DNA of 23,230 nt from positions 1-23,230 of the IMG/VR virus record IMGVR_UViG_3300047284_000200; one strand, given 5' to 3'. The translations under genes were made by a program, and so were the position numbers. Source of the stretch: a virus. Shown one piece after another: positions 6,177 through 20,601 of the stretch (positions are counted from its first letter, which is position 1; the number at the start of each line of letters is the position of its first letter). Below the pieces are notes generated by a model. That model was not told where the DNA came from. It ran no database searches and saw only the letters and a program-made list of their open reading frames with translations.

Positions 6177-6413
6177 ATGCCCGACATCAAATACGAGATG
6201 AATCATTCTGATCCTAAGTATCAGGAATACATCTTCAAAGATGGTCAATATATTGGTGAGATCTACGGTGGTGTTCTTGAAGGATTTGAACTCCGTAAAG
6301 TGAATGGAATTGCCATTGAAGACAGTGGTGTTACTACTGATCTTCAAACCATTGCATACTTCGATACAGTTTGCGATGCTAAATCTTTCGTTAATCAAGC
6401 AGGAGGACTCTAA
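6177..6413 (+). CDS. Small conserved hypothetical protein
   Basis: 78 aa, starting MPDIKYEMNHSDPKYQEYIF. It looks like a small beta-rich domain with several strand pairs (EYIFKDGQYIGEIYGGVLEG, then FELRKVNGIAIED) and a C-terminal helix (CDAKSFVNQAG). I chose ATG 6177 because the earlier in-frame ATG (6144) lies upstream of the transcription start of the promoter at 6125. First gene of its unit. Function unknown. Confidence 0.75.
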   Translation: MPDIKYEMNHSDPKYQEYIFKDGQYIGEIYGGVLEGFELRKVNGIAIEDSGVTTDLQTIAYFDTVCDAKSFVNQAGGL

Positions 6414-6544
6414 TGTTCACGTTTCTTACTATAGGTGCGGCATGGTTCGCATTTGGTTATTGTGTGACTGATATTTTCCAAACATATCAGGCAAACAAAC
6501 GCATTAATGAATTCATCAAAGATTTTGAGGACATCCAAAAATGA
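6413..6544 (+). CDS. Small single-pass membrane protein
   Basis: 43 aa. Residues about 3-21 are hydrophobic (FTLTIGAA-like: FLTIGAAWFAFGYCV), followed by a charged tail (NKRINEFIKDFED). The start overlaps the upstream TAA by one base and the stop overlaps the next start by ATGA. AGGAGG in the leader gives a strong ribosome-binding site. Probably an inner- or thylakoid-membrane protein; no family recognised. Confidence 0.7.
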   Translation: MFTFLTIGAAWFAFGYCVTDIFQTYQANKRINEFIKDFEDIQK

Positions 6545-6669
6545 ACCCTGATACTTACACTTTTGCTGGTGATGCTACCACCTTCCTTGGTCTTGTTGGT
6601 GTGGTTTCGACTGCTATTATTATGGTTGTTGCCTATCGTAGGTACTGGAACTCTCCTTATCGTCGTTAA
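6541..6669 (+). CDS. Small single-pass membrane protein
   Basis: 42 aa. A short polar N-terminus (MNPDTYTFAGDATT) is followed by a transmembrane segment (FLGLVGVVSTAIIMVVAY) and a basic tail (RRYWNSPYRR). Positive charge after the segment suggests the N-terminus faces out. It is coupled by ATGA to the previous membrane gene, so the two may form a pair. In length and layout it resembles small photosystem or transporter subunits, but I see no sequence match to claim. Confidence 0.7.
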   Translation: MNPDTYTFAGDATTFLGLVGVVSTAIIMVVAYRRYWNSPYRR

Positions 6670-6675
6670 TTGACT

Positions 6676-6828
6676 ATGAAACTAGATTATCTCACTGATG
6701 CTGAATATGCTCAGCAAAAGCAACAAGAATACAAACGCAAGAAACTGCGTGAAGTTGTAAAGAACAATGCCAAATCTGCCCGAGGATTTGGTTATGATTA
6801 CAAACCGATTCAATTCCCTGCAAATTAA
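6676..6828 (+). CDS. Small basic hypothetical protein
   Basis: 50 aa, starting MKLDYLTDAEYAQQKQQEYK. A charged helix rich in Gln, Lys and Glu (about residues 8-32) is followed by an extended tail with aromatic residues (GFGYDYKPIQFP). The stop overlaps the next start as TAATG. Function unknown. Confidence 0.65.
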   Translation: MKLDYLTDAEYAQQKQQEYKRKKLREVVKNNAKSARGFGYDYKPIQFPAN

Positions 6829-7040
6829 TGAAATCCAACGGATTCACTCTTGTTGAACTGATGATTGCTCTAACTCTTATTGCTATTGGAGGAATGTTTG
6901 TCGGTCTTCTTATTAACGGAGACCGATCGTTTATTCTCAACAAACAATCCTGCCTTGATGCTGGTGGTCAATGGTCTGAGGGTATTCAATACGGTCGTAT
7001 CACTCAACTCTGTACCATAACTGATTATGAACTTCACTGA
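6828..7040 (+). CDS. Type IV pilin-like (pseudopilin-like) small protein
   Basis: 70 aa. The N-terminus MKSNGFTLVELMIALTLIAI matches the type III (prepilin) signal: a short basic leader, Gly5 as the cleavage point, Phe6 as first mature residue and Glu10 at mature position 5, followed by a hydrophobic helix to about residue 29. Cys42 and Cys61 could form the C-terminal disulfide seen in many pilins. If cut by the host prepilin peptidase (PilD), the product could enter or jam host type IV pili or competence machinery. It is far shorter than a major pilin (usually 130-170 aa), so a minor-pilin mimic or inhibitor is more likely. The role is inference. Confidence 0.75.
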   Translation: MKSNGFTLVELMIALTLIAIGGMFVGLLINGDRSFILNKQSCLDAGGQWSEGIQYGRITQLCTITDYELH

Positions 7041-7296
7041 ACTTAACTTTGACGATCACCCTAGCTGGGATGGTGTTCAAGCAAAACACTTCTTTGACAA
7101 TGGTTATGGTGTGAGTGTGATTAAATCTTCCAACTCCTATGGTGGTGGTCTTGGACTGTATGAACTTGCCGTGCTGAAAGGGGTTGAAGATGAATGGCAA
7201 ATCTGCTATGATACTCCCATCACTGATGATGTTATCGGTCATCTTAGTGAATCTGATGTTGAAAAACTCTTGAATGAGGTTGCTGCTTTGACATGA
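7027..7296 (+). CDS. Conserved hypothetical protein
   Basis: 89 aa, starting MNFTELNFDDHPSWDGVQAK. It shows a small alpha/beta layout with strands around GYGVSVIKSSNSYGGGLGLY and YELAVLKGV, and a C-terminal helix (ESDVEKLLNEVAAL). Similar short proteins occur in cyanophages without a known role. It overlaps the pilin-like gene by 14 bases and the next gene by ATGA. Confidence 0.75.
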   Translation: MNFTELNFDDHPSWDGVQAKHFFDNGYGVSVIKSSNSYGGGLGLYELAVLKGVEDEWQICYDTPITDDVIGHLSESDVEKLLNEVAALT

Positions 7297-7454
7297 TTGC
7301 ACGAATTCTTGGTACTGGAGCAGGTGTACTTTTGATCCTGCTCGTTCTACTTTCGAGAGGTCTTCCTGTCTTGTTCTTTATCAAGATGCTGCCTCTCATT
7401 CTTATTCTAATTGTAGGAGCAGCATTTATCTATGCTGGTCTTACTTCTGACTGA
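7293..7454 (+). CDS. Small two-helix membrane protein
   Basis: 53 aa, almost entirely hydrophobic, with segments at about residues 10-30 (GAGVLLILLVLL and GLPVLFF) and 33-49 (PLILILIVGAAFIYAG). Coupled by ATGA to the previous gene and 28 bases before the SPFH gene. Small membrane partners are common next to SPFH genes, but a link here is only suggested by position. Confidence 0.7.
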   Translation: MIARILGTGAGVLLILLVLLSRGLPVLFFIKMLPLILILIVGAAFIYAGLTSD

Positions 7455-7482: not shown

Positions 7483-8301
7483 ATGTCTACTGGCAAAATT
7501 GTTCTTGGTGTTGGTGGTGTTCTCGTTGCCCTGATCTTTACTGCAGGACAATTCACCACGATTAACACTGGTGAGAATGGTCTCTATGTGGGATTCGATG
7601 GTAAAGTGAATAATGAAGTGCTGACTCCTGGTATTAAATACGATGGATTTGGCAGCATTAAAGTGTTCAATACTCGTAAGATTACGGTTCAATCTAATGA
7701 TCTGACTCCGAAGACCAAAGACAACACCATCATGAAAGATATGGATGTGGTTGTTACTTACAGTCTCACACCTTCGAGTCTTTATGACTTCTACACTGGG
7801 TACGATATGTCGAACCACGGTGTCAGTGAGAATGGTCAGATTGAACTGATGGCAAGTTTTATCAAACGACTGATTACCTCTGCTGTGAATCAATCGGTTG
7901 ATGAATATCCTGCTCTGGAAGTGAACAGCAGTCTCGATAAGATTCAGGATACTATCAAGAATAACCTGAATCTGTCTCTGGAAAAGAACAACCTCGCAGG
8001 TAAGATTCAGATCGAATCTGTTGTGGTTGTGAAGGCAGATCTCCCTGCTGATCTAGTTGCTGCTGTGAATCGTGTGGTTACTGCACAATCCGCAGAACAG
8101 GAGCAGATTGTTAAGAACCGTACTGCTGAACTGAAAGCAAACGAGAACAAATCTCTTGCTTCGACTATCACTCCGCAGTATCTTGAATATCAACGCAACG
8201 AAATTATGCGTGAGGCATTTAAGAATGGTGGCATCGAAAAGATGATCATTGTTAATGGTTCTTCGATGAACTTCCTGCCTGGTGGTATGACTGGTAAGTG
8301 A
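7483..8301 (+). CDS. SPFH/Band-7 (prohibitin/stomatin-like) membrane protein
   Basis: 272 aa. An N-terminal membrane anchor (about residues 4-24, VLGVGGVLVALIFTAG) is followed by an SPFH domain (about 25-200; TINTGENGLYVGFDGKV, LTPGIKYDGF, VVTYSLTP, VESVVV-type strand IQIESVVVVKADLP) and a charged helical region typical of the family (about 200-235, AEQEQIVKNRTAELKANENK). SPFH proteins form large ring or cage assemblies on membranes and regulate proteases and lipid domains; in cyanophages they recur but the target is unknown. It may act with the neighbouring small membrane proteins. Confidence 0.9.
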   Translation: MSTGKIVLGVGGVLVALIFTAGQFTTINTGENGLYVGFDGKVNNEVLTPGIKYDGFGSIKVFNTRKITVQSNDLTPKTKDNTIMKDMDVVVTYSLTPSSLYDFYTGYDMSNHGVSENGQIELMASFIKRLITSAVNQSVDEYPALEVNSSLDKIQDTIKNNLNLSLEKNNLAGKIQIESVVVVKADLPADLVAAVNRVVTAQSAEQEQIVKNRTAELKANENKSLASTITPQYLEYQRNEIMREAFKNGGIEKMIIVNGSSMNFLPGGMTGK

Positions 8302-8303
8302 TT

Positions 8304-8570
8304 ATGACTGAAACTATTACTCGCAAACAATCTGTAGTTGATGAACTCTGGAAACGAGCAAATGATCTAATCGAAAATTATGATGGTGAATTGTTCGGTT
8401 CAGGTGTCCTTGTCAACATGAATCTGCGTATTCTTGAAGATGAATTGATGACCCCTGATGAGTTTCATAGTTGGGTCTACGATGAAGATCTAGATGCAAT
8501 CCACGATTATATTTGGATTCATACTAAATGCCATCCAAAGTCTCCTTATCGGTATGATGAAGAGCAATAA
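8304..8570 (+). CDS. Small acidic hypothetical protein
   Basis: 88 aa from ATG 8304, starting MTETITRKQSVVDELWKRAN. It is acidic and helical at first, then has aromatic residues (SWVYDEDLDAIHDYIWIHTK). A GTG at 8298 would overlap the SPFH stop as GTGA and is an alternative start. Its TAA stop forms part of the box at 8567, so the gene ends exactly where the next regulatory module begins. Function unknown. Confidence 0.7.
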   Translation: MTETITRKQSVVDELWKRANDLIENYDGELFGSGVLVNMNLRILEDELMTPDEFHSWVYDEDLDAIHDYIWIHTKCHPKSPYRYDEEQ

Positions 8571-8620
8571 GCAACACTGATCAATGGGGGGTTGACTTCC
8601 CCCTTTTTTTGTGCCATACT
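8567..8620 (+). promoter_or_regulatory. Box-linked promoter (copy 2)
   Basis: Box ATAAGCAACACTGATC at 8567-8582, 9 bp, TTGACT at 8592-8597, 17 bp, extended -10 TGC-CATACT at 8612-8620. It drives the ligase-like gene at 8627, whose start is so near that the leader must be very short. Confidence 0.9.
8586..8610 (+). terminator. Intrinsic terminator with the -35 box as its loop
   Basis: GGGGG (8587-8591), loop TTGACTT, CCCCC (8599-8603), then seven T (8604-8610). A short but strong G/C stem with a T tract, ending the 6177-8570 unit. The loop is the -35 hexamer of the next promoter. Confidence 0.85.
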
Positions 8621-8626
8621 AAAGAC

Positions 8627-9532
8627 ATGAAAAACACACACCTCGAACATCCCGAAGATTCTGTGCTGCTGGGCAAGCAATCTGTACAGAATGTTATCAA
8701 GTTTCTCCGTGATCGTAATTCTACTGTCACTGTGAAGTGGGATGGTGCTCCTGCTATTGTATTTGGCACGAATCCTGAGAATGGCAAGTTCTTTGTTGGT
8801 ACTAAAAGTGTATTCAACAAGGTGAAAGTCAAGATCAATTATACTCATGCCGACATCGAGAAGTATCACGGCACGAACCCTAAAGTTGCTGGGATTCTCC
8901 ACACTTGCCTCGAAACTTTCCCGAGGATCGAAGGTGTTTATCAGGGTGATTTTATTGGTTTTGGTGGTACGAATACTTTTACTCCCAATACTATTACTTA
9001 CACTTTCGATTCCATTCCCAATTCTGCTTCTATTGTGTTTGCTTGTCATACTTCTTATGATGGTGACACGATGAAGACTTTGGAAGCAAGTTTCGGAGTT
9101 CCGTTCTATCTCAAACAGAACTTCATGTCCACTTATTTTGTGAATACTGATGCAGTTGTTGCCTCCCGTCGTCGTAGAGTTGATTACATTCTTGGTCTTG
9201 CAAGTGTGGTTAGCAATTTTGTTAAGTACCCTGATGCAAAAGAAGTAGCAAAACTGCAGATTCTGATTAATAAGTGCATCCGTGATAATCGTCCTGTTGA
9301 TTGTATCTCTGGCAACATGTTGCTGCTGTTCAATCTCATCACCAAGGCAAAGGAACTGATCATGGAAGGTATGCAATCTGTTGAGCAGGTTAATGCTGAG
9401 ATCGTCTACACTGGCATCGAAGTTATACCTGGACATGAGGGTTTCGTTATGTCTAACCAGTTCGGTGCTTACAAGTTAGTCAAGAGGCAGAAGTTCTCGT
9501 TCTATAACTTTACTTTGCCTAAGAACTGGTGA
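8627..9532 (+). CDS. Divergent ATP-dependent ligase-like nucleotidyltransferase
   Basis: 301 aa from ATG 8627. VKWDGAPAIVFG (residues 36-47) carries the KxDG motif I with Lys37 as the candidate nucleotide-accepting residue. EGVYQGDFIG (102-111) could be motif III. Near the C-terminus EGFVMSNQFGAYKLVKR (271-287) fits motifs IV (EGxV) and V (Lys283, Lys286), about as far apart as in T4 RNA ligase 1. Such enzymes join or cap nucleic-acid ends through a covalent Lys-AMP. The overall sequence is otherwise unlike T4 ligases, and I recall cyanophage relatives listed only as conserved proteins of unknown function. I am fairly sure of the fold, unsure of the substrate (RNA or DNA). Alone in its unit, just upstream of small genes and a helicase. 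Confidence 0.7.
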   Translation: MKNTHLEHPEDSVLLGKQSVQNVIKFLRDRNSTVTVKWDGAPAIVFGTNPENGKFFVGTKSVFNKVKVKINYTHADIEKYHGTNPKVAGILHTCLETFPRIEGVYQGDFIGFGGTNTFTPNTITYTFDSIPNSASIVFACHTSYDGDTMKTLEASFGVPFYLKQNFMSTYFVNTDAVVASRRRRVDYILGLASVVSNFVKYPDAKEVAKLQILINKCIRDNRPVDCISGNMLLLFNLITKAKELIMEGMQSVEQVNAEIVYTGIEVIPGHEGFVMSNQFGAYKLVKRQKFSFYNFTLPKNW

Positions 9533-9535
9533 ACC

Positions 9536-9589
9536 ATAAGCAACACTGATCGTTCAGGGGTTGACTTTGGCACCGATCCACCCTATCAT
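9536..9589 (+). promoter_or_regulatory. Box-linked promoter (copy 3)
   Basis: Box ATAAGCAACACTGATC at 9536-9551, 9 bp, TTGACT at 9561-9566, 17 bp, TATCAT at 9584-9589. GATCG (9548-9552) and CGATC (9574-9578) could form a 5-bp stem around the -35, a weak version of the hairpins at other copies. It drives 9614-10565. Confidence 0.85.
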
Positions 9590-9613
9590 TACAAAGTAAT
9601 CGAAATCAAACAC

Positions 9614-9733
9614 ATGTGGGACGAAATCATGGACATGCCTGGTGAGATCTTTGATCTCGACATTGATGATCGTGATATGATGCCTCTTGACATGCAAGAT
9701 GACATCGAAAATGAAGATCCTCTGCTGGACTGA
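9614..9733 (+). CDS. Tiny acidic Asp/Met-rich protein
   Basis: 39 aa, starting MWDEIMDMPGEIFDLDIDDR. About a third of the residues are Asp or Glu, with six Met. It is the first gene after the promoter at 9561 and has no basic segment. It might mimic DNA or act as a small inhibitor, but composition is the only hint. Short length lowers confidence. Confidence 0.6.
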   Translation: MWDEIMDMPGEIFDLDIDDRDMMPLDMQDDIENEDPLLD

Positions 9734-9752
9734 TCAATCTAACTGAGAACAA

Positions 9753-9911
9753 ATGACTGTTATTAATCAGCAACACTGGGACACTCTTTATACCAAACTC
9801 TACGATGCGTATGAACAGTGTTCCAAGAATTATGACGAGACTTACCGACAATTTATTGGTGAGATTCTCGATCACATGATTAACAACAAACCCTATCTCA
9901 ACATCAAATGA
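9753..9911 (+). CDS. Small helical hypothetical protein
   Basis: 52 aa, starting MTVINQQHWDTLYTKLYDAY. It is one long amphipathic helix region with many Tyr, then FIGEILDHMINNKPYLNIK. Overlaps the next gene by ATGA. Function unknown. Confidence 0.65.
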   Translation: MTVINQQHWDTLYTKLYDAYEQCSKNYDETYRQFIGEILDHMINNKPYLNIK

Positions 9912-10090
9912 CTGAAACGAGTATCATCAATTACCTCAATCTCACTCAAGAAGAAGAGAATTGTATCATGCTGCTGCTCACTGAAGCACGGCAACTTGGA
10001 TACCCTAGTAATAAAGAACCATGGTATCCTGTGATTGATAGTATTGTCAGCAAATATACCAAACGAAAGTATCGCAATCAAACTCGATGA
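9908..10090 (+). CDS. Small hypothetical protein
   Basis: 60 aa, starting MTETSIINYLNLTQEEENCI. An acidic helical first half (TQEEENCIMLLLTEARQLG) is followed by a Trp/Pro turn and a basic C-terminus (VSKYTKRKYRNQTR). ATGA overlaps on both sides place it in the 9614-10565 unit. Function unknown. Confidence 0.7.
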   Translation: MTETSIINYLNLTQEEENCIMLLLTEARQLGYPSNKEPWYPVIDSIVSKYTKRKYRNQTR

Positions 10091-10293
10091 CAAACAACGC
10101 ACGAATCATCTCCAGTCTTGTACTCTGTGTGGCATATGTAATCACCTTGTATGTTGATGAGGTGATTGGTGCTCGTTTATACCTTGCAGGCAACATCCTG
10201 GCAATGCCCTACATGATCCAGAATAAGTGTTGGGACATTGTTGCACTTCTAGCATTCTTCATTGTTGTAGGTCTTCCTAAGGCAATCTCATGA
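10087..10293 (+). CDS. Small membrane protein (two or three segments)
   Basis: 68 aa. Hydrophobic segments lie at about residues 7-23 (IISSLVLCVAYVITLYV), 28-42 (GARLYLAGNILAMPY) and 49-65 (WDIVALLAFFIVVGLP). It lies in the middle of a coupled run (ATGA on both sides). Family not recognised. Confidence 0.7.
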   Translation: MTNNARIISSLVLCVAYVITLYVDEVIGARLYLAGNILAMPYMIQNKCWDIVALLAFFIVVGLPKAIS

Positions 10294-10565
10294 AGTTGTT
10301 ATTTCACAAGGCACCCGAAGGTTATCACTATGAACGCACCGATTTTAAGACTAATATTAGTGCAATTTGGATTGTTAATGACAATCACTTTGACTATTGT
10401 GGGTGCTCTGGTGTTAGGTCGATCTGGGGATTCATCAACACCAAGACCAAACAATTCCACGCACCAGTTAATAGTAAGACAGTGGGTAGTGTAGTCAAAC
10501 TGGAGCAGACTACATGTTACTCTGCGATGCAAAAGTTAAAAGATAAGTTGACTGAATCAGTCTGA
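10290..10565 (+). CDS. Small hypothetical protein
   Basis: 91 aa, starting MKLLFHKAPEGYHYERTDFK. It looks beta-rich, with strands around ISAIWIVNDNHFDYCGCSG and SIWGFINTKTKQFHAPVNSK, then a C-terminal helix with TTCYSAMQKLKDKLTE. The CGC motif and one further Cys could bind metal, but this is weak. The final codons overlap the box at 10565. Function unknown. Confidence 0.7.
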   Translation: MKLLFHKAPEGYHYERTDFKTNISAIWIVNDNHFDYCGCSGVRSIWGFINTKTKQFHAPVNSKTVGSVVKLEQTTCYSAMQKLKDKLTESV

Positions 10566-10619
10566 TAAGCAACACTGATGGATCAGGGGGTTGACTTCTG
10601 CCCCTTGATCCTTTATTGT
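10565..10619 (+). promoter_or_regulatory. Box-linked promoter (copy 4)
   Basis: Box ATAAGCAACACTGATG at 10565-10580 (last base changed), 10 bp, TTGACT at 10591-10596, 17 bp, TATTGT at 10614-10619. It drives the helicase. This is the only full copy with a 10-bp gap. Confidence 0.85.
10580..10611 (+). terminator. Terminator-like hairpin with the -35 box in its loop
   Basis: GGATCAGGGGG (10580-10590) pairs with CCCCTTGATCC (10601-10611), 11 pairs with one G-T, around the loop TTGACTTCTG. TTTATT follows, a poor T tract. The loop begins exactly at the -35 hexamer. Confidence 0.75.
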
Positions 10620-10642
10620 ATTCACATACCAATCAATTCGTT

Positions 10643-11875
10643 ATGCAACTCCGTCCTCACCAATCCCGTGCTCTCGATGCAATGAATCAGCACAAGATCG
10701 GTCAGATCATTGTGCCTACTGGTGGTGGTAAAACTCTCATCATGATCATGAATCTGCTGCAACGTTTTGTGCAGAATCCTGGTCAGGTTGCTGTTGTTGT
10801 TGCACCCCGAATCCTGCTTGCTGAGCAACTCTCCGCAGAGTTTCTGGAGTTTATCACCAGTGCCAATGTGTTGCACGTTCATAGTGGTGAAACTCATCAC
10901 ACTAAGACTACCAAATCCGAGAAGATTGCGGATTGGGTTACTCAATATGCGGACACCAATCGTATCATCTTCACGACCTACAATTCTCTGGGTCGTGTTG
11001 TTGATGCTGGTGTGAATGTCGATGTGGCATACTTCGATGAAGCACACAATTCTACTCAAAAGAATCACTTCATTGCGGTTGCTGCTACTTCGATGTCCGC
11101 AGATAGCAAGTATTTCTTTACTGCTACTCCCAAACATCACAGCAATCCTAATGCTAACGGCATGAACAATGTTGGTATCTACGGCAAGATCATTGAGTCC
11201 GTTCGTGCTAAGGAACTGATCGACGGTGGTTGCATCATTCCTCCGCAAGTTTCGACCTACAAAGTAGACATCACCCGTGACAAACGCACTGCTGCAGAGG
11301 CAGACCGCAACATGATTGTGGACATTCTCGATAGTCTGGAGCAGGACAATCCTAAGGTGTTGGTAGCTGCTCCCAGCACCAAAGTGATGTGGAATATGCT
11401 CACTAACTCTGACATCCTTAAGGAACTCGAAGATCGTGGATTTAACATCCTTCACATTACATCTAAGCATGGTGCCTATGTTAATCGTACAAAGGTCAAT
11501 CGTGAGAAGTTCTTTGACACTCTGACCGAGTGGGGCAAAGATCCTAGCAAGAAATTTGTGCTCCTTCACTATAGCATCCTGTCCGAAGGTATCAACGTTC
11601 CTGGTCTGACTACCTGCATCATGTTGCGTCAGATGCCTATCATCGAGATGGCACAAACAGTCGGTCGTGTTATCCGTATGGACAAAGATGATGCCAAGGA
11701 TATTGCATCGGGTCGCATTCCTGCTGGTGCTTGTCATCTGTATCGCAAGCAGTTTGGTAGTGTGATCGTGCCTGTGTTCACCAACTACGGTAGTGCTATT
11801 GCCAAACGATTGCAGGGTGTTGTTGACACTATCTTTGTGCAAGGTCTCCCTGCTATCTCTACCATGACTCGTTGA
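10643..11875 (+). CDS. Superfamily 2 DEAH-type helicase
   Basis: 410 aa from ATG 10643; an earlier TTG reading would start inside the -10. Motifs appear in SF2 order: Q-like LRPHQSRAL (3-11), Walker A PTGGGKT (25-31), DEAH at 132-135, TATP near 160, and motif VI QTVGRVIRM (338-346). Known relatives (T4 UvsW, type III restriction-like helicases) unwind or remodel branched DNA or RNA. It is shorter than UvsW (about 500 aa) and has no obvious extra N-terminal domain, so it may be a second, minimal helicase. It is the only gene of its unit, followed by a large hairpin. Confidence 0.9.
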   Translation: MQLRPHQSRALDAMNQHKIGQIIVPTGGGKTLIMIMNLLQRFVQNPGQVAVVVAPRILLAEQLSAEFLEFITSANVLHVHSGETHHTKTTKSEKIADWVTQYADTNRIIFTTYNSLGRVVDAGVNVDVAYFDEAHNSTQKNHFIAVAATSMSADSKYFFTATPKHHSNPNANGMNNVGIYGKIIESVRAKELIDGGCIIPPQVSTYKVDITRDKRTAAEADRNMIVDILDSLEQDNPKVLVAAPSTKVMWNMLTNSDILKELEDRGFNILHITSKHGAYVNRTKVNREKFFDTLTEWGKDPSKKFVLLHYSILSEGINVPGLTTCIMLRQMPIIEMAQTVGRVIRMDKDDAKDIASGRIPAGACHLYRKQFGSVIVPVFTNYGSAIAKRLQGVVDTIFVQGLPAISTMTR

Positions 11876-17220: not shown

Positions 17221-20200
17221 ATGCCGATCTATATTGACGAGACGAGAAGAGGATATCCAGACCCCGTAAATTGGGATACAGCAGATATTGAACTGTATGG
17301 ACAGGGAAAAGGGTCGTATTTGTTCGGCAAAGATGAAGTATTTTACATCGGAGACCCAGAAGAAGTCGTACTTGCATCCACTTCTACCCGTCGTAAGGTC
17401 TATCGAATGTACGATGGTCGTGCAGTAGACCATTTATACACCACTGACGACTCAGAAAAACCTCGTTCATACAATCGTGAACCACGTTCCAATCAAGAAT
17501 ACGTGTTTACGGTCATGACAAGTCAGGTAAGTGGTTCTGTTCCACTCTATCGACACTATAGTTCCGCAAATACTGATCACAAATATAGTCTAAATGCCTC
17601 TGAAAGTGGATATACCCAACAAAGTATCATGGGGTATGTGTTCACTTCATATTCTGCAGCTCAAACATATTCAAATTCTAAGATTGGTGAGGTAGCAAAA
17701 CCAGTCTATTACTACTACAACTCCTCAGGAAAGGATAGTTTCTATACATTAAGACCTAGTACTGAGGTTAATCTACAAGAATACAACTCTGGTGCTCTAG
17801 GTCCACCGTATCCTGGTGATGATAGACAGGATCCTGACCGTGGAGACGAGTACACATACATGGGAATTCTGTGCTGGACGTTTGAAAGAATGTCTGGTAC
17901 GGATACAAAACGTGTTATTGAGATTGGTAAACCACAATATGCAGGAACATCATTCCTTTATGGGTGGTTGACTGATGTAAATGGTGGTACTGCAACTGGG
18001 AATACCCGTACAAATTGGACTGCTGCACGTTATTCTTTGATTGCAACTCGAAATTATCTCATTAATGATCAGAGAGCAAACTTCACATTCCTCTATGGTG
18101 AGTTTGGACCAGTGAAGGCAGCACTTCCAAGGTTCATTGGAACCAAGTATCTGTACGATTCGCAGTTCTTCTACTACCTATATGACACCACAGACCCCTG
18201 GAATGGACCTCTGTACGGTGTTCGCATGATGACCGAGAAAGATAGTGCTGGGAACTGCTGCATCGAGACTGGAGGTGGGGAAGGAGGAACATCAGTTTGT
18301 CCAGAATCAGATCCTTGGATTTATCGTTATTACTATCAGTTACGTCCGAATGTATGGAAGACGAAGAAAAGTAGAATCTATACAGATGTAAAAAATGATG
18401 AAGGGCAGGATCAGAATATTCTGACAGCAGGAACTGACGATAAGATTATATTCTTCCGTTATAGTGCTGGATCCTTCAACATGACAGAAGGTGATATTGT
18501 GAATGGTTGGAGAGTCACAGAGCACCGTTATATGGGTGATGAGTTGACTACTGGATTCATTCGTCTGTCACCTGCTACAGAGGGTCTAGATGGCAGTACA
18601 TTCACTTATGGAAGTGTCTACACAAATAACAATTCATCATACCCAGCATCATTTGTTGCTCTAGCAGGATATGGAATTGAGAACAAGTGTGCTATCTTTG
18701 GTGTCTATGAATTTAAAAAGAAGGTATCATACTACAAAGTTGAATTATATGCAGATGCTGCCGTTCCTAAAAGAACGATGGATGAGGCAGACATCGAAGC
18801 TGTTGTTGATAACAATGGAAAAGTATCGGATCTAATCATTCACAATGGTGGATATGGATATTCTACAGATGCGAGGGTGGAGATTATGTCACCTCCAACT
18901 GAGAATACAAGTGCCGATATAGAAAATACTAGAACATATTATCTAAAAAATCAAATTATTGATACAACTGGTACAACATTAACTTGGACAAAAAATCCCA
19001 GTTACAAAACTGTGGGGCAAGGTGTAACTGAACAAGTCAAGAATGGAGTTACTATCAATGAAACTTCCCTAAAATTAAAACCAGCAAATGTGCAAATCAC
19101 AGGATTGAGTGCAGAGGGTTGCATTCAATCTGTTAAGATTCTAGAATCTGGTAGTGGATACAATCAACAAAGTCCACCAAAGGTTATTGTGTATGATCCA
19201 CATAAGTTTGTACAAGATAACTCCCCCAGAAAAGATATTGGAGAAGATCTATTAGCAACAGGTAAAAATTCTCAAGACAAACTTCTTGGGGTTCTTTCTT
19301 CTATTGGCCAATCATCAAATGTCTCTAATGATCTAGGTAAAGCATTTAGGTCATCTGACTTGACAAGTGGGATTAAAGATGCTTTTAAGAAATTTGATGA
19401 TGGAGTTACAGGAACAATCTACACTGGATACATTAAGGGTCCAGGAGATATAGATCCTGAGAATTACATGGAGTTTTGTTTGGGAATTCCAACTTCATGT
19501 GCAAACCCAACATTTTCAACTTGGGATCCACTGAACACATATACATCAGATTTCTTCAGGCATGTGATCAATTATGATCAAACTGGTGGATTCAAAAATA
19601 ATTACTCTTTCCTCAATACTACAGGGAAACAAGCAATTACAAATTTAGGAAAAACTGCTGACAATGCAGGTGGTCTCTATGGTGCATTTAATCCTGCTGG
19701 GAATCTTCAGTGCCTAAAGATGCAACAACCAAAATTATACAAAGTAACTAGATTCTATGATATTCCATGTGCGTATACTGTAGGTGCTGGAGATACAAAA
19801 AAAGTCTATGCATACATGCCATATCAGTATTGTGCTAGTAAGAAAGAATCCGATTCATTTAATATCTACATTGAAGTAGATGGTGATTTTACTGGATCTG
19901 CATCTTCTACCGCACAGAATACTGCTTTCATCAATAAACTCAAAGGATTACAAGCACCCAAAAAATTAGCACCTAGACCTGCAGCAGCTGGTGTTAAGAC
20001 TTGGCACTGCACCAGGGGTAATTATGATGGTAGGTGCTTCAGAGCAGCAGATGGTGATATATCATTTTATCCAATTGGATTAGATGAAAATGTATATGAC
20101 TACACACATCTAACAGTTTATGAAGCATATAATGTTTGGATTGGACAACCATCTAATACACTTGCAGGAACAGCAGGAACTCTTGCTGGATTATATTATT

Positions 20201-20601
20201 TTTGGTTAGGTGGTGGAGCAGCAGTTGGAACAAAGTACACTGGACCAAATCAACCATCAACATCATGGGATCATTATGTCTATGATGCAAGTACAAATCC
20301 AAATGGTCTCTTCTTCAAATATACGGGTTATGACGAAAATGGAAATGGAGCAGGACAGCAGACTAGGTGGCAGAACTACATCTATACCATGCCCCCTTGC
20401 GAGGGAGTTACAGACATAGATAGTATGATTGCCTTTGACCCCACTCAAATTGCAATTAATAATGATCTAGTGAGATTGGGTCCATTCCAGGGAAAGGTCA
20501 CTATCAAGAACTATTCTACAGGAAGTGCTAAAGTATATGCTCAGGCATTTAACAATTTAGGCAATCCTTATTTTGAATCTTGTTTAAACGCAACTAACTA
20601 G
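17221..20601 (+). CDS. Large tail/baseplate protein with DUF5648-like repeats
   Basis: 1126 aa. Near the N-terminus three repeats of about 50 residues begin VYRMYDGRAVDHLYTTD (about 60), PLYRHYSSANTDHKYS (about 108) and PVYYYYNSSGKDSFYT (about 161), matching the YR(xx)Y...DHxYT pattern of DUF5648-type repeats found in secreted and surface proteins. IIHNGGYGYSTDARVEI (539-555) and KILESGSGYNQQSP (639-652) are copies of the NGG(S/Y)GY motif common in cyanophage tail proteins. Cys-rich sections (NCCIETGGG, EGCIQS) may be bound by disulfides. It lies just upstream of the PAAR-like, gp25 and gp6 genes, so it is probably a hub, spike-base or adhesion protein. Exact role unknown. Confidence 0.75.
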   Translation: MPIYIDETRRGYPDPVNWDTADIELYGQGKGSYLFGKDEVFYIGDPEEVVLASTSTRRKVYRMYDGRAVDHLYTTDDSEKPRSYNREPRSNQEYVFTVMTSQVSGSVPLYRHYSSANTDHKYSLNASESGYTQQSIMGYVFTSYSAAQTYSNSKIGEVAKPVYYYYNSSGKDSFYTLRPSTEVNLQEYNSGALGPPYPGDDRQDPDRGDEYTYMGILCWTFERMSGTDTKRVIEIGKPQYAGTSFLYGWLTDVNGGTATGNTRTNWTAARYSLIATRNYLINDQRANFTFLYGEFGPVKAALPRFIGTKYLYDSQFFYYLYDTTDPWNGPLYGVRMMTEKDSAGNCCIETGGGEGGTSVCPESDPWIYRYYYQLRPNVWKTKKSRIYTDVKNDEGQDQNILTAGTDDKIIFFRYSAGSFNMTEGDIVNGWRVTEHRYMGDELTTGFIRLSPATEGLDGSTFTYGSVYTNNNSSYPASFVALAGYGIENKCAIFGVYEFKKKVSYYKVELYADAAVPKRTMDEADIEAVVDNNGKVSDLIIHNGGYGYSTDARVEIMSPPTENTSADIENTRTYYLKNQIIDTTGTTLTWTKNPSYKTVGQGVTEQVKNGVTINETSLKLKPANVQITGLSAEGCIQSVKILESGSGYNQQSPPKVIVYDPHKFVQDNSPRKDIGEDLLATGKNSQDKLLGVLSSIGQSSNVSNDLGKAFRSSDLTSGIKDAFKKFDDGVTGTIYTGYIKGPGDIDPENYMEFCLGIPTSCANPTFSTWDPLNTYTSDFFRHVINYDQTGGFKNNYSFLNTTGKQAITNLGKTADNAGGLYGAFNPAGNLQCLKMQQPKLYKVTRFYDIPCAYTVGAGDTKKVYAYMPYQYCASKKESDSFNIYIEVDGDFTGSASSTAQNTAFINKLKGLQAPKKLAPRPAAAGVKTWHCTRGNYDGRCFRAADGDISFYPIGLDENVYDYTHLTVYEAYNVWIGQPSNTLAGTAGTLAGLYYFWLGGGAAVGTKYTGPNQPSTSWDHYVYDASTNPNGLFFKYTGYDENGNGAGQQTRWQNYIYTMPPCEGVTDIDSMIAFDPTQIAINNDLVRLGPFQGKVTIKNYSTGSAKVYAQAFNNLGNPYFESCLNATN

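Follow-up and report, generated by a model that had tools for sequence, protein, structure and literature searches.

A prepilin-like gene in a cyanophage genome fragment

The window, i.e. the whole stretch of DNA analyzed here, is a virus fragment of 23,230 bases. T4-like baseplate genes (gp25 and gp6) are found at its right end and, judging from its sequence, it belongs to a T4-like cyanophage. On the plus strand, an ORF starting with ATG (6828..7040) encodes a protein of 70 amino acids. Its 5′ end overlaps the preceding stop codon and its 3′ end runs into the next ORF, an arrangement known from compact phage operons. No late-promoter pattern was found near the gene, the promoter scan remaining at chance level. 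A terminator-like hairpin is present within the gene (6900-6927) and is probably fortuitous, since the matching bases are partly lost in the related contig L042.

The protein starts with a short leader containing a single Lys, MKSNG (6828..6842, +), which is predicted to be cut by the host prepilin peptidase after Gly5. The mature N-terminus, FTLVE, and the membrane helix that it opens are encoded by positions 6843..6917 (+). The Gly at position -1 is followed by an aromatic residue, and a Glu at mature position +5 (6855-6857, +) lies within the hydrophobic stretch, as expected for class III signals. The 70-residue product matched both Pfam N_methyl (PF07963, 32.4 bits for a cut-off of 21.2, E 5.8e-8) and NCBIfam TIGR02532 IV_pilin_GFxxxE (28.1 bits for a cut-off of 16.3, E 1.2e-6). 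With two profiles above their cut-offs, the initial annotation of this ORF as carrying a complete prepilin signal is borne out, and the predicted full class III (prepilin) signal holds. A strict motif scan performed in six frames on 835 kb of related phage DNA recovered members of the prepilin-like family only; as a single family was returned, the motif is beyond chance.

The surrounding genes correspond to the small membrane proteins and SPFH protein described initially. Upstream are a small ORF with a hydrophobic segment (6413-6544) and a 42-amino-acid hydrophobic protein (phrog_14199; 6541..6669, +), which occurs in several Synechococcus phages. The next ORF downstream (7027..7296, +), which overlaps the end of the prepilin-like gene, encodes an 89-amino-acid protein of unknown function (phrog_4074, PHROG 7.7e-20). 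It is followed by a 53-amino-acid hydrophobic protein (7293..7454, +), falling into the same cluster in 9 of the contigs compared, and directly thereafter by the gene of a 272-amino-acid SPFH/Band_7 protein (7483..8301, +; Pfam Band_7 4e-19), a partner conserved by linkage.

Other features were noticed elsewhere in the window. A strong terminator-like hairpin (GGGGGG...CCCCC followed by a T run; 8586-8605) separates ORF 8298-8570 from a DUF6267 ORF starting near 8609. Early in a 91-amino-acid ORF (1995-2270), a CRPC stretch is reminiscent of thioredoxins or glutaredoxins. An ORF of 1126 amino acids (17221-20601), lying upstream of the baseplate genes, carries a DUF5648 domain (5.8e-14) and is possibly an adhesin or a tail-related protein.

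The likely hosts are picocyanobacteria equipped with prepilin genes

The nearest isolate is the Synechococcus phage S-CREM1, whose host is Synechococcus CB0101. It shows the same gene order, including the phrog_4074 ORF as judged by position and shared cluster, and is devoid of the prepilin-like gene. In this genome (L002:1847-7337), a run of consecutive genes are annotated as 2OG-Fe(II) oxygenases, one JmjC gene being among them. The larger contigs of the family carry Photo_RC (psbA/psbD) genes, and the PsbA of one of them had its best bacterial match in Cyanobium. Because of this match, and because several further relatives come from lakes or reservoirs, the marine setting initially assumed is doubtful and probably wrong; the hosts are more likely to be picocyanobacteria of freshwater or estuarine habitats.

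Starting from PsbA, six cyanobacterial genomes (Cyanobium, Synechococcus and cyanobacterial bins) were selected as likely hosts. An A24 prepilin peptidase (PilD) was present in five of them, and all six encode prepilins (4-7 each), some of which are near-identical to the phage protein over the first 20 mature residues. The C-terminal tail of the phage protein, which contains two Cys, had no relative among the host pilins examined.

Conservation of the prepilin signal among cyanophage homologues

A single-sequence scan of IMG/VR with the 70-amino-acid protein yielded no relatives. These surfaced first through the neighbouring SPFH gene and then through an alignment search, which led to about 30 distinct homologues in all. 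The alignment comprises 27 distinct members: the copy present in the window plus 26 homologues located on cyanophage contigs of IMG/VR. The initial annotation had proposed that a protein serving only as a membrane anchor would lose Gly5 and Glu10 (Glu at mature +5) in its homologues. This reading fails, since Gly(-1) is kept in 25 and Glu(+5) in 26 of the 27 members. Phe or Tyr directly follows position -1 in every member, and 25/27 matched N_methyl when searched singly (E<=1e-3). The two Cys noted initially, at residues 42 and 62, are invariant (27/27). A distant group (L105-L109) displays longer leaders and a divergent tail, together with the same motif and Cys residues.

The departures from this pattern are few. 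Ser replaces Gly at -1 in L092. In L100/L031, which represent one contig, positions -1 and +5 are occupied by Glu and Lys, respectively, and the tail is intact. The N-terminal part is missing in L101 and L102; in the latter (L102:470-634), the residues before the tail are MKTSTA, with which the small membrane gene usually found upstream begins, so that L102 may be a deletion fusion of this gene and the prepilin-like gene. Assembly errors could possibly account for these exceptional members. Taken at face value, they show that the two-Cys tail can occur without the prepilin signal.

Several candidates were discarded. L110-L117 were left out of the family since their similarity is mostly confined to the N-terminus, and the ones examined over their whole length proved to be long prepilins of the ordinary type. 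A match in Synechococcus phage Sf-FS3 was dropped, being antisense to an annotated gene. When 50,697 phage records were searched with the protein by tblastn, all matches were either at chance level or to pilins in general, and a generic pilin query of the phage set gave none, probably as a result of low-complexity masking. N_methyl had no match in 11 cyanophage isolate genomes searched whole, which indicates that the prepilin-like gene is optional.

The two-Cys tail

The tail spanning Cys42 to Cys62 (6951..7013, +) follows the pattern CxxxGGxWxEG...LC, and the proteins of the close group end with CxxxGGKWSEGIQYGRxTQLCTYN. The C-terminus of the window copy is altered (7014..7040, +): on the DNA alignment with L042, one base is missing between 7016 and 7017, after the last Cys, and the protein ends with ITDYELH instead of the YN of its relatives. 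The missing base may be either real or a sequencing error.

AlphaFold models of moderate confidence (pLDDT 70 and 76) consist of one membrane-length helix (residues 8-30, about 22 residues), a short helix and a two-strand hairpin, the strands being placed at 48-54 and 57-63 with the same moderate confidence. No match was obtained at E<=0.001 when the PDB was searched for this predicted fold, and PADLOC gave no match. The tail was absent from annotated phage records, it had no relative in a GTDB scan relying on one peptide pattern, and its matches across 201 genomes of a host family were no more than short and weak. These matches in Cyanobiaceae were rejected as chance or unrelated, the best one (E 1.6e-3) extending over 17 positions and the frames being of about 300 residues.

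When the fetched loci were searched by pattern for the tail on plain membrane anchors, the prepilin-like family alone was recovered, apart from looser cases in L109 and L092. There, small proteins with a plain membrane segment (L109:6115-6369 and L092:11173-11487) have a tail resembling that of the prepilin-like protein (Cys...G...CTY), the match of the L092 protein being weak (E 0.0096). The two-Cys module may thus also ride on ordinary anchors.

Selection acts on both the cleavage motif and the tail

The pN/pS ratio was computed by segment in the close group, in which pS is similar throughout (0.40-0.47). It was low in the cleavage motif (residues 5-11, 0.17) and in the Cys loop (0.155), intermediate in the linker (0.55) and high in the rest of the membrane helix (residues 12-31, 0.87). 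According to these ratios, the cleavage/docking motif and the Cys tail are both constrained at the protein level, while the helix would mostly need to be hydrophobic. A plain membrane anchor as the whole story is rejected on the contrast between the motif and the remainder of the helix. A DNA-level element is rejected as well, since variation at synonymous sites is about even from one segment of the gene to the next.

The same ratios bear on whether the gene is a captured fragment of a host pilin, functionless and drifting. Its patchy distribution, the motif-less lineage, the two N-terminally truncated copies and the altered C-terminus of the window copy are what such decay would look like. 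However, two distinct segments are under strong purifying selection throughout the family, and the gene is retained in distantly related phages (L105-L109), which makes this explanation very improbable.

In prepilins, the Gly is critical for processing, whereas Glu5 is dispensable for processing and needed for homopolymer assembly (PMC4471445). Since Glu5 is retained in the phage family although processing does not need it, a role beyond delivery to the membrane, namely docking with pilins, is suggested, and its retention points to a working pilin-like function. On the other hand, the tail is as conserved as the motif, and the main function of the protein may therefore lie in the tail, which argues against a pilin mimic.

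Linkage to SPFH genes and other genomic contexts

A full SPFH gene or a gene of phrog_11227 is located at most 2 kb downstream of the prepilin-like gene in nearly all lineages with enough sequence, and this linkage is kept in the distant phage L109. The exceptions are L017/L018, in which the SPFH gene lies about 7 kb upstream, L089, L101 and L105-L108. As observed in L075 (10195-10602) and its relatives, phrog_11227, a 'protease' according to PHROGs, also matches the phage SPFH family phrog_200 in its C-terminal part (1.4e-11); it looks like an SPFH tail deprived of the SPFH domain.

This linkage is one argument for considering the prepilin signal as a targeting device only. PilD processing would then deliver a two-Cys peptide to the plasma membrane, and not to the thylakoid, for a periplasmic job carried out with the linked SPFH protein, for example blocking the DNA of superinfecting phages or providing a membrane scaffold, and with no role in pili. 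The constraint on the tail, equal to that on the motif, and the three contigs that retain the tail but lack the motif or the helix are consistent with this scenario. However, Glu5, which neither processing nor anchoring requires (PMC4471445), is kept almost throughout the family, and about 30 SPFH loci, several of them short, show no prepilin gene, so that the linkage may be functional or plain synteny. We consider targeting alone the main alternative explanation, to which we give roughly one chance in three.

A different context was observed in L105-L108 (about 8500-11300), where the prepilin-like gene comes after endolysin-like and RlpA-like (DPBB) genes and before a gene for a secreted protein; in L106, the same region also contains an SLH domain. 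The proximity of endolysin-like and RlpA-like transglycosylase genes could denote a lysis or envelope accessory, i.e. a small membrane protein linked to holins, spanins or wall remodelling, with a borrowed pilin N-terminus. This is improbable: the association is limited to the distant group, and no lysis gene was seen adjoining the prepilin-like gene in the window. Moreover, lysis proteins are not known to require Gly(-1) and Glu5.

A putative role in host type IV pili

That the phage protein is a substrate of PilD appears very probable. Whether it acts on the host pilus machinery is an evenly balanced question, and the same even chance applies to the more explicit scenario of a minimal pilin mimic that would be processed by PilD and then enter or jam this machinery. 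Of the pilin mimic put forward in the initial annotation, the part concerning the signal, which is under selection, is strongly supported; action on pili is the best remaining reading, with L100, which keeps the tail without the motif, weighing against it.

We propose that the protein, by virtue of its class III signal, would be inserted into the plasma membrane by the host SRP/Sec pathway and cleaved by PilD after Gly5. Conservation suggests that the mature protein of about 59-65 amino acids keeps its aromatic residue 1 and Glu5 for pilin-pilin docking. It could in this way engage the host type IV pilus assembly site, where it would compete with host pilins or join them. Since it would consist of the alpha1-N half of a pilin helix, with a small two-Cys hairpin in place of the globular head, it may act as a cap, a poison subunit or an odd minor pilin, and stop or change host pili during infection. 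Later phages would then be excluded or pilus-dependent uptake blocked. More speculatively, the linked SPFH protein may organise the prepilin-like protein in the membrane. The most extended version, a cyanophage family of pilin decoys in which PilD-processed half-pilins with a two-Cys tail and a phage SPFH scaffold switch off or rebuild host pili, is put forward only tentatively and is rather unlikely as a whole.

In other bacteria, type IV pili mediate the uptake of DNA or are used by phages as receptors. Such pili are encoded by about three quarters of the marine Synechococcus in culture and by one quarter of the single-cell genomes of marine picocyanobacteria, which use them to stay in suspension and to evade grazers (PMC7994388). 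A phage family that keeps a prepilin code under selection suggests that viruses act on the pilus machinery from inside. It offers a modest but testable way into the effects that infection may have on how picocyanobacteria sink, are grazed, take up genes and become superinfected.

Comparison with known pilins and pilus-targeting phage proteins

The phage protein shares with type IV pilins and other class III proteins (PF07963, TIGR02532) a short leader ending with Gly, an aromatic residue 1, Glu5 and a hydrophobic N-terminal helix. It differs from them in being phage-encoded, in its mature size, which leaves no room for a full head, and in its unique two-Cys tail. The host PilA1 has about 140 amino acids in its mature form (PMC7994388); compared with it, the phage protein is devoid of the globular head. 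Type IV pilins have a long alpha1 helix packed on a globular beta-sheet head; very short pilins do exist (PMC4471445), so that the single helix and hairpin of the models may still be compatible with a pilin. Among solved structures, the best sequence matches were the PilA-N of Geobacter (PDB 2m7g, 9egp, 7tgg), of similar length and with an N-terminal helix, yet the match is confined to the first 25 positions or so and the phage tail does not align. Flp pilins are another kind of short pilin.

Phage genes with prepilin N-termini are already known. They include the PHROG pilin-like families phrog_3433 ('pilin'), 13280, 11263 and 10597, some of which have 59-72 positions, and the PilE-like gene of Acinetobacter phage Acibel004, whose genome has an N_methyl match. 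The PHROG matches cover mostly the N-terminal 20-40 residues, and that to phrog_3433 was restricted to positions 18-36 or 20-43 of 127, short of the family length. No description of prepilin-like proteins in cyanophages was found in the literature searched and, as far as our searches went, a conserved family of cyanophage proteins that combines a two-Cys tail of its own with linkage to SPFH genes is undescribed. Small proteins of other phages, PfsE, Tip, Aqs1 and Zip, act on type IV pili and exclude other phages (PMC8764522, PMC11656802), and this silencing is a precedent for interference with pili. Their binding partners are PilC, PilB or PilZ and they have not been described as prepilins, the likeness to the cyanophage protein being a functional analogy only.
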